From Xenophilus aerolatus (GTDB lineage Bacteria; Pseudomonadota; Gammaproteobacteria; Burkholderiales; Burkholderiaceae_C): a stretch of 64,000 nucleotides of DNA. Shown piece after piece: positions 60,877 to 63,354 of the stretch. The stretch lies in contig JASCNX010000001.1 in NCBI GenBank assembly GCA_029968055.1, positions 744,001 through 808,000 of the forward strand. Direction: 5' to 3'. A program made the position numbers and the translations under genes. The notes beneath the pieces are model-generated. The model made no database searches and was not told where the DNA came from. It saw nothing but the letters and a program-made list of their open reading frames with translations. Position 1 is the first letter of the stretch. The number at the start of each line of letters is the position of its first letter.

Positions 60877-63354
60877 ATGCAGAAGATCATTCGCCAGATC
60901 GCCACCGAGCTGAAGGTGGGCGAGCACCAGGTGCAGGCCGCGACGGACCTGCTCGACGGCGGCGCCACGGTGCCCTTCATCGCGCGCTACCGCAAGGAGG
61001 CCACGGGCGGGCTGGACGACGCACAGTTGCGCGAGCTGGAGGTGCGCCTGACCTACCTGCGCGAACTGGAGGATCGCCGCGGCGCGGTGCTCAAGGCCAT
61101 CGACGAGCAGGGCAAGCTGACCGATGCGTTGCGCATCGCGATTGCCACCGCACCGACCAAGCAGGAGCTGGAAGACATCTACCTGCCCTTCAAGCAGAAG
61201 CGCCGCACCAAGGGCCAGATCGCGAAGGAATTCGGGATCGAGCCGCTCGCCGACAGGGTGCTGGCCGATCCCACACTGGACCCGGCCGTGGAGGCGCAGG
61301 CCTTCCTCAAGCCGGCGACGACGCTGGACGACGGGAAGCCGGGCCCGGATTTCTCGACCGTGCCCGCCGTGCTCGACGGCGTGCGCGACATCCTCTCCGA
61401 ACGCTGGGCCGAGGACCCGGTGCTGGTGCAGTCGCTGCGCGAATGGCTGTGGGCCGAGGGCCTGCTCAAGTCTTCGCTGGTGGCGGGCAAGGATGAGAAC
61501 CATCCCGACGTCGCCAAGTTCCGTGATTACTTCGACTACGACGAGCCCATCGGCCGGGTGCCCTCGCACCGCGCGCTGGCAGTGTTCCGGGGCCGGCAAC
61601 TGGAGGTTCTCGATGCCAAGCTGGTGCTGCCGGTCGATCCGGAGCCGGGCAAGCCCACCATCGCCGAAGGCCGCATCGCGCTGCACCTGGGCTGGAGCCA
61701 CGCGGGCCGCAAGGCCGACGACCTGATCCGCAAGTGCATCGCCTGGACCTGGCGCGTGAAGCTGAGCCTGTCGAGCGAGCGCGACCTGTTCACCCGGCTG
61801 CGCGAAGAGGCCGAGAAGGTCGCCATCAAGGTCTTTGCCGACAACCTGCGCGATCTGCTGCTGGCAGCGCCGGCGGGCCCGAGGGTGGTGATGGGCCTGG
61901 ACCCGGGCATCCGCACCGGCGTGAAGGTGGCGGTGGTCGATGCGACCGGCAAGCTGGTCGAGACGGCGACCGTGTTCCCGCACGAACCGCGCAAGGACTG
62001 GGAGGGCTCGCTGCACACGCTGGGCAAGCTGTGCGCCAAGCACGGCGTGAACCTCATCGCCATCGGCAACGGCACCGCCAGCCGCGAGACCGATAAGCTT
62101 GCAGGAGACGTCATCAAGCTGGTGGCCAAGCTCGCCCAATCCGTTCAGGCCCCTGCAACCGTTCAGGCTGAGCCTGTCGAAGCCCGGGGCGGCGCTTCGA
62201 CAGGCTCAGCGCGAACGGGCGGTGGGGTGCAAACGGGTGGGGGCGTGCAAACCGTGGCGGAGATTCAAAAGGTGGTGGTGAGCGAGGCGGGTGCGTCCGT
62301 CTACAGCGCAAGCGAATTCGCCTCGCAGGAGATGCCCGACGTCGACGTGAGCCTGCGAGGCGCCGCGAGCATCGCGCGGCGCCTGCAGGATCCGCTGGCC
62401 GAGCTGGTGAAGATCGATCCCAAGAGCATCGGCGTGGGCCAGTACCAGCACGACGTGAACCAGAGCGAGCTCGCCCGCACGCTGGTGGCCGTGGTCGAGG
62501 ACTGCGTGAACTCGGTGGGCGTGGACCTCAACACCGCCAGCGTGCCGCTGCTCAGCCGCGTCTCGGGCCTCACGCCGAGCGTGGCCAAGGCGGTGGTGCG
62601 CTGGCGCGAGGCGAACGGCGCCTTCGCCACCCGCAAGCAGTTGCTGGAGGTCACCGGTTTCGGCCCCAAGGCCTTCGAGCAGAGCGCAGGTTTCCTGCGC
62701 ATCCGCGGCGGCGCCGACCCGCTGGACATGACCGGCGTGCACCCCGAGACCTACCCGCTGGTCGAGAAGATCATCCAGACCACCGGCAAGCGGGTGGCGG
62801 AACTCATGGGCCGCGCGGAGATGCTGAAGACGCTCAAGCCCGAGCTCTTCGCCAACGAGAAGTTCGGCGTGATCACCGTCAAGGACATCCTGGGCGAACT
62901 CGAGAAGCCCGGTCGCGACCCGCGCCCCGACTTCAAGGTGGCTCGGTTCAACGACGGCGTGGAGGACATCGCCGACCTGCAGGAAGGCATGATTCTCGAG
63001 GGTACCGTGAGCAACGTGGCTCAGTTCGGCGCCTTCATCGACCTGGGCGTGCACCAGGACGGCCTGGTCCACGTGAGCCAGCTGAGCCACAAGTTCGTCA
63101 ACGATGCGCGCGAGGTCGTCAAGACCGGCGACATCGTCAAGGTGAAGGTGATGGAGGTCGACGTGGCGCGCAAGCGGATCGGCCTGTCGATGAAGCTCGA
63201 CGCCGCACCGGCGCGGAGAGACAGTCCGCGCGAGAACCGCTTCGAAGGGGCAGGGCGCGGCCAGCAGGGTTACGGCTCGCGCCGCGACAGCGCCCCGCAG
63301 CCGGCGGGTCAGATGGCGAGTGCATTTGCGAAGCTGCAGGGGCTGCGCAAATAG
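60877..63354 (+). CDS. tex: RNA-binding transcriptional accessory protein Tex with in-frame repeat insertion
   Basis: 825 residues, against about 775-790 usually. Domain order is intact: N-terminal HTH-like part (GGATVPFIARYRKEATGGLD), YqgF-like nuclease-fold domain (MGLDPGIRTGVKVAVVDATG), helix-hairpin-helix part (DLNTASVPLLSRVSGLTPS) and a C-terminal S1 RNA-binding domain (GTVSNVAQFGAFIDLGVHQD). Residues about 422-462 are extra: the segment AEPVEARGGASTGSARTGGG is the translation of a palindromic repeat also found between genes in this window. Tex helps transcription termination/rescue. The frame stays open across the insertion. Confidence 0.94.
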   Translation: MQKIIRQIATELKVGEHQVQAATDLLDGGATVPFIARYRKEATGGLDDAQLRELEVRLTYLRELEDRRGAVLKAIDEQGKLTDALRIAIATAPTKQELEDIYLPFKQKRRTKGQIAKEFGIEPLADRVLADPTLDPAVEAQAFLKPATTLDDGKPGPDFSTVPAVLDGVRDILSERWAEDPVLVQSLREWLWAEGLLKSSLVAGKDENHPDVAKFRDYFDYDEPIGRVPSHRALAVFRGRQLEVLDAKLVLPVDPEPGKPTIAEGRIALHLGWSHAGRKADDLIRKCIAWTWRVKLSLSSERDLFTRLREEAEKVAIKVFADNLRDLLLAAPAGPRVVMGLDPGIRTGVKVAVVDATGKLVETATVFPHEPRKDWEGSLHTLGKLCAKHGVNLIAIGNGTASRETDKLAGDVIKLVAKLAQSVQAPATVQAEPVEARGGASTGSARTGGGVQTGGGVQTVAEIQKVVVSEAGASVYSASEFASQEMPDVDVSLRGAASIARRLQDPLAELVKIDPKSIGVGQYQHDVNQSELARTLVAVVEDCVNSVGVDLNTASVPLLSRVSGLTPSVAKAVVRWREANGAFATRKQLLEVTGFGPKAFEQSAGFLRIRGGADPLDMTGVHPETYPLVEKIIQTTGKRVAELMGRAEMLKTLKPELFANEKFGVITVKDILGELEKPGRDPRPDFKVARFNDGVEDIADLQEGMILEGTVSNVAQFGAFIDLGVHQDGLVHVSQLSHKFVNDAREVVKTGDIVKVKVMEVDVARKRIGLSMKLDAAPARRDSPRENRFEGAGRGQQGYGSRRDSAPQPAGQMASAFAKLQGLRK
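62159..62218. repeat. 60-bp palindromic repeat (TTCGACAGGCTCAG family), copy 3, inside tex
   Basis: Left arm begins CCGTTCAGGCTGAGCCTGTC; right arm reads GCTTCGACAGGCTCAGCGCG then AACGG. The repeat length (60 bp, multiple of three) keeps the tex frame. A further short copy of CCGTTCAGGC precedes it at 62141-62150, and GTGCAAACGGGTGGGG-like text is duplicated after it. Confidence 0.9.

Follow-up and report, generated by a model that had tools for sequence, protein, structure and literature searches.

We analysed a 64,000-nucleotide stretch of Xenophilus aerolatus DNA (the window), in which the gene tex carries a palindromic repeat within its coding sequence. Translation of the tex reading frame gives no internal stop, and the palindrome is read in frame. 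The earlier note had considered a frameshift or truncation at this site; the frame proved to be open. Pfam assigns Tex_N, Tex central region, YqgF, HHH and S1 domains to the protein, and the full-length Tex set (Tex_N, YqgF, HHH, S1) is consistent across Pfam, phmmer and Foldseek. The features of the locus and the related copies in the window are as follows.

60877-63354, + strand: tex, 825 aa, open frame; Tex_N, central, YqgF, HHH and S1 domains
62146-62259, + strand: foreign-looking linker in Tex, approximately residues 424-461; low confidence in the model and 33 residues longer than in 12 of 14 congeners, which lack the element
62159-62218, no strand assigned: 60-bp palindromic dimer in tex, read as VQAEPVEA...ASTGSART
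62159-62185, + strand: left arm of the tex dimer (CCGTTC, inner stem, GAGCCTGTCGA core, inner stem)
62192-62218, - strand: right arm of the tex dimer, an inverted unit whose inner stem differs from that of the left arm (GCGCT/AGCGC)
33302-33361, no strand assigned: second copy; identity to the tex copy 50/60 bases
36394-36477, no strand assigned: third, longer variant copy, of the 46-bp core-to-core class

The Tex linker

The insert had originally been placed after the YqgF domain. The Tex_YqgF profile of Pfam is matched in two stretches, the best of which covers residues 336-416 and profile positions 1-81 of 126. Since this stretch stops at residue 416, at position 81 of a profile of 126, the insert lies inside the YqgF domain instead. 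The second stretch would then be placed 3' of the insert. The Tex protein of Pseudomonas aeruginosa (PA5201; solved as 3bzc, 3bzk and 2oce) gives the top Foldseek and phmmer matches of the window Tex. It aligns in two blocks, which leave query residues 416-461 unmatched, and the palindrome falls within this gap. The solved Tex 3bzc has just a few residues (between 408 and 413) at the position of the insert.

An in-frame addition of roughly 40 residues had been claimed in the earlier note. This figure stands for the linker as a whole, but the palindrome alone encodes only about 20 of its residues, and the excess over 12 of the 14 congeners is 33. The edges of the insert are not clean. The flanking linker also differs between Tex sequences, so that the exact insertion event cannot be reconstructed.

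In the AlphaFold model (34 sequences, mean pLDDT 77), residues 424-460 have pLDDT values below 50 and lie between the end of a helix at residue 423 and the start of a strand at residue 464. This is the sole internal run of three or more residues with pLDDT <50; the other such runs, 780-813 and 823-825, are at the C-terminal end. An exposed, disordered loop leading from helix to strand is the probable form of the insert, low pLDDT alone being no proof of disorder. The best solved matches of the model in Foldseek are 3bzk, 3bzc and 2oce. These matches have moderate TM-scores (query 0.60-0.61, target 0.67-0.68) and an rmsd above 10 Å, from which we conclude that the domain arrangement of Tex is poorly reproduced in the model.

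The repeat family and its coding copies

The tex palindrome (CCGTTC...GAACGG) is built of two inverted 27-bp arms. It is real, as had been proposed: the arm pattern has five matches in the window at ≤3 mismatches and none in 100 shuffles. Its assignment to one family with two intergenic copies holds. The third copy is a longer variant of the family, and the interval first given for it, 36391-36480, includes flanking bases. No Rfam family was found in the window at gathering level. An inverted repeat of the CTCCCCTCTGGGAGAGGG type lies at window positions 33215-33250, just upstream of the 33302 copy.

Genome-wide, 53 dimers have two exact 11-nt cores in inverted order, compared to none in the reversed control. 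We read the surroundings of 50 of them and left three unread. The 60-bp (canonical) form accounts for 31 of the 50; CCGTTC opens all 31 canonical copies and GAACGG closes 30. Beyond the outer ends there is a weak C-rich/G-rich complement, and GTGG is present at 10 of 62 outer ends. A target duplication, one mark of a MITE or IS remnant, was not observed in the 31 canonical copies. The tex copy is 98% identical over 61 bases to another copy in the same genome (C1:1060353).

With foldings centred on the core, inner pairing lies above every shuffle at positions 2-4 only (Watson-Crick pairs in 102, 102 and 87 of 105 units). The shuffles gave a mean of 69.6 (largest 78) at position 3 and of 43.3 (largest 58) at position 4. 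Position 5 is paired in 40 of 105 units versus a shuffle mean of 53.4, with wobble pairs uncounted, and shows no excess over chance. Both G-C orientations are used in the inner stem. The two units of a dimer are not independent of each other, nor are those of related copies, so these values support an inner hairpin but do not amount to a clean covariation test.

Exact dimers occur in 14 of the 369 genomes sampled across the class (own genome included), many with other spacers and stems. Across the 15 genomes of the genus their number ranges from 0 to 53, with two genomes (G001 and G014) at zero, 48 dimers in G012 and the 53 in the genome of the window. A Y1_Tnp search gave one gene over the cut-off, with no core within approximately 1.5 kb at ≤3 mismatches. 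A dedicated RAYT as the mover of the repeat is unsupported, the single Y1_Tnp gene having no core nearby. Among candidate carriers, phages gave no match; three plasmid records matched, none with a listed gene under the match. A search of the open-licence literature by titles (core-string, REP, in-frame and Comamonadaceae terms) found nothing on this repeat, which says little about all that is in print.

Tex is not a one-off case. Eight of the 50 dimers read lie inside genes: besides the one in tex, there are copies in the genes for Mfd, UvrA, RecJ, YgiQ, TssH, an FAD/Fe-S oxidase and a QuiC-like protein. Several lineages, moreover, have the element in the Tex loop (see below). The coding copies were chosen by eye, on the basis of codon bias (GC3) on both flanks or of domains on both sides. 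Left out of the eight were L158 (MdtA-like adaptor), L196 (NirD-like) and L183, which are near a gene start or have a weak codon signal. The oxidase copy was recognised after joining stretches and sits between the two halves of an FAD-oxidase/Fe-S protein. The QuiC-like protein is named after its best NCBIfam match, which is under the cut-off of the model. The UvrA carrier is a double-length protein with an open frame of 1968 residues (L195 3-5201).

Six of these genes (Tex and the oxidase excluded) were compared with their counterparts in 14 congeners, giving 74 of 84 possible rows. The uncompared rows are QuiC of G002, YgiQ of G013 (on two contigs) and TssH of eight congeners (divergent, broken or missing matches). 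The element core (≤1 mismatch) is present at the same site in 29 of the 74 rows and absent from 45. Each of the 74 gaps has a length divisible by 3, which is to be expected if the genes are open. In UvrA of G003, G004, G008, G011, G012 and G013 the peptide reading is kept with only one core recognisable.

On each strand, one phase of the dimer nearly always runs into a stop, one reads ...LSLSKP...LRQAQ... and one reads ...AEPVEA...STGSART.... The AEPVEA phase is used by all eight coding copies. Among the 42 other dimers (84 strand-readings, with the three doubtful copies counted as non-coding), the LSLSK phase is open in 80 readings, against 67 for the AEPVEA phase and one for the third phase. 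The chance of eight out of eight in the AEPVEA phase is 0.453^8 = 0.0018, or 0.004 with equal weight given to both open phases. AEPVEA is also read in the 29 congener rows and in the eight Tex carriers, as judged by eye; these are not independent cases. In the coding copies the LSLSK phase is likewise free of stops (16 of 16 strand-readings), so the AEPVEA reading is not forced by stop codons. In our view, the single phase, seen across eight genes, points to selection for a peptide that the protein can tolerate.

The Tex loop in other genomes

In 12 of the 14 congeners, the segment from GNGT to SEAGAS has 45 residues and no element, compared to 78 residues in the window. The alignment of relatives thus gave the empty site that had been envisaged: a shorter linker and not an unrelated one of the same length. 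The congeners G012 and G013 carry the element, with segments of 75 and 68 residues. Tex of G009, which is free of the element, is 98% identical to the window Tex outside the linker.

Outside the genus, the same loop is occupied by the element in G177, G318, G127, G290 (one core recognisable) and the betaproteobacterial MAG L092. The family search covered 399 genomes, 360 of them with a match, and the best 30 loci among the matches listed were read; 15 match over the full length, and the palindrome is present in five, counting the locus of the window itself and L124, in which one core is recognisable. The order search covered 399 genomes, 223 with a match, and the best 30 loci among the matches listed were screened, with G000 (the genome of the window) and G127 as the only carriers. 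As these carrier counts refer to the best loci among the matches listed, they are not frequencies.

A tree was built by a quick method from 151 Tex rows with the linker removed; rows were taken by search rank and some genomes appear twice. Carrier states were set by the core at ≤2 mismatches, with L124 (carrier) and L126 (non-carrier) set by eye. The eight Tex carriers need eight changes on this tree, of which at least seven are forced by branches with SH-aLRT ≥95. Shuffled carrier labels need a mean of 7.9 changes; the carriers are therefore no less scattered than chance labels. The insert is present in G012 and G013 and absent from G008 and G003, which are very similar to them. With these two carriers among such similar non-carriers, loss or inter-strain recombination may mimic some of the gains.

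It could be argued from this scatter, and from the position of G012 and G013 amid very similar genomes without the insert, that the window received its tex insert from a carrier tex allele of another lineage through homologous recombination, with no new insertion of the repeat. However, the Tex linkers of G000 and G012 differ in both flanks and spacer. In the rest of Tex, G000 groups with G005, G006, G007, G009 and G010, all of which have the empty site. The tex copy also resembles the copies of its own genome, as in the match at C1:1060353. We consider this origin unlikely.

Two rows of the tree deserve mention. G601 (L210), the sister of the carrier L092, reads STGSPRT at the Tex site, possibly the remnant of a deleted element. 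L071 comes from a MAG labelled Akkermansia muciniphila. Its Tex stands among those of Limnohabitans and other Comamonadaceae, and the label is probably wrong.

Origin of the insert and relation to known systems

A REP-like element very probably landed in the Tex loop and was kept there by a filter of frame and phase. The repeat is dispersed, close relatives have element-free sites, the frame is open, a single phase is used, and the same Tex loop is occupied in several lineages. A non-autonomous element of two inverted hairpin units (60 bp, ends CCGTTC and GAACGG) would have dispersed across the genome, and one copy would have inserted into Tex, in the helix-to-strand loop of its RNase H-like YqgF domain. 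Survival of this copy may be due to a loop that already varied in length, to an insert size that preserves the frame, and to a phase that gives a small, polar, disordered peptide. The same filter could account for the copies in Mfd, UvrA, RecJ, YgiQ, the QuiC-like protein, TssH and the FAD/Fe-S oxidase. The mover would be an enzyme acting in trans or a replication process. The filter is presumably selection at the level of the protein, and the loop would be neutral for Tex function. Of the description of the insert in the earlier note as a mobile or REP-like element tolerated as a linker, the REP-like dispersed element serving as a linker holds. That it is mobile is suggested by copy-number differences and empty sites, and that it is tolerated is likewise a reading of the sequences.

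Alternatively, the insert might be retained because its RNA hairpin regulates tex through pausing, termination or mRNA processing. The 120-nt tex RNA has a predicted fold of -74.8 kcal/mol (z -5.5 versus shuffles), in agreement with the strong mRNA hairpin anticipated earlier, and the tex palindrome is intact. Such a role would nevertheless have to be dispensable in the 12 of 14 congeners that lack the element. It also fits poorly with UvrA of the six congeners, where the peptide reading persists with one recognisable core, and with the presence of the element in eight unrelated genes. We regard a regulatory hairpin as very unlikely. Ordinary length variation of a low-complexity linker that is palindromic by chance, or an assembly or frameshift artefact, can practically be dismissed: the GNGT-to-SEAGAS segment does range from 34 to 81 residues among the loci read, but the tex copy belongs to a set of 53 dimers (none in the control), its frame is open, other genomes have carriers, and the congener-site comparison in six other genes contradicts it.

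The proposed insertion of a REP-like element into a tolerant loop has parallels. Rickettsia palindromic elements (RPEs) were reportedly described by Ogata in 2000 inside protein-coding genes. Extracts of two further papers place RPEs in frame in Rickettsia ORFs, at solvent-exposed sites (PMC3767692, PMC10969869). As far as these extracts go, the likeness is that palindromic dispersed repeats stand in frame in unrelated genes, in exposed parts and at the same sites in orthologues. RPEs are 100-150 bp long and occur in Rickettsia and Wolbachia according to the same extracts, whereas the present element has 60 bp and resides in a GC-rich betaproteobacterium. In contrast to RPEs as portrayed there, close relatives are element-free at the same sites here, and several separate lineages carry the element in one and the same loop. 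The present element is in frame in conserved ORFs, its sites are empty in relatives, and its exposure is predicted by the Tex model alone. By analogy, it seems to work like an RPE, a likeness in mode.

The available part of Di Nocera 2013 (PMC3733652) describes GTAG and CGTC REPs, some of them intragenic and many of these in replication/repair genes. According to that text, intragenic REPs may be neutral, lying in flexible linkers or loops, and REPs are found at about the same recB site in two Xanthomonas species. CGTC-tagged REPs, as presented there, share with our element the inverted dimers, the lack of a dedicated transposase and the intragenic units, many of them in replication/repair genes; here, 53 inverted dimers were counted and the Y1_Tnp search found no core beside the single gene. 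The CGTC-tagged REPs have stems of 8-9 bp and loops of 4-5 nt in the same text, whereas we find an inner stem of about four pairs round an 11-nt core, and foldings centred on the core give no stem and loop of those sizes. The CGTC tag (CGTC counted, not TGTC or CCTC) is at none of the 62 outer ends and nowhere within the first 8 bases outside them. GTAG-tagged REPs with a RAYT, in the portion of PMC3733652 at hand, are likewise small palindromic repeats with intragenic units reported. The GTAG end is found at none of our 62 outer ends; GTGG, seen at ten of them, is given there as a variant of one GTAG REP family. A RAYT flanked by the repeat was not found, the one Y1_Tnp gene having no core within approximately 1.5 kb.

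The repeat family, the single phase and the recurrent occupation of one loop are new; protein-coding palindromes were already known (RPEs, intragenic GTAG/CGTC REPs). In the sources as far as they were available, such palindromes figure chiefly as a feature of Rickettsia, and a comparable compact system is now at hand in another group. It consists of one element, eight genes, element-free close relatives and one Tex loop in several lineages. It offers a direct way to ask if peptides that stem from repeats change repair and RNA-binding proteins or are neutral passengers in them, and which phases proteins tolerate.

The Tex loop also seems to be filled in other ways. The Tex linker of G092 (L126 1555-1695) matches 23 other places of its own genome. 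The linker of G287 (L129 1555-1680) has seven further matches in G287 and 16 in G313, of which one falls in the tex gene of G313 itself; many of its matches are short, the weakest with E near 0.01. The loops of G092, G287 and G313 look like they hold dispersed repeats of other families than the present one, the repeat of G313 being related to that of G287. We suggest, tentatively and with somewhat less than even confidence, that the loops of Tex, Mfd, UvrA and the other proteins may be protein-level landing pads for unrelated small repeats across Burkholderiales, of which only the disordered, polar phase survives. If this is true, small repeats would steadily supply DNA-repair and RNA-binding proteins with disordered linkers.

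At the UvrA site of several congeners (L253, L254, L255, L301) the linker is longer and decayed, with repeated TVRAE/HRAE-like pieces, as if a hairpin arm had been copied in tandem. In G014 and G008 (L248, L272), the linker at the TssH and YgiQ sites reads LPLPPAGEGGGEG / LPPPLGEGRGGG and resembles yet another GC-rich repeat.
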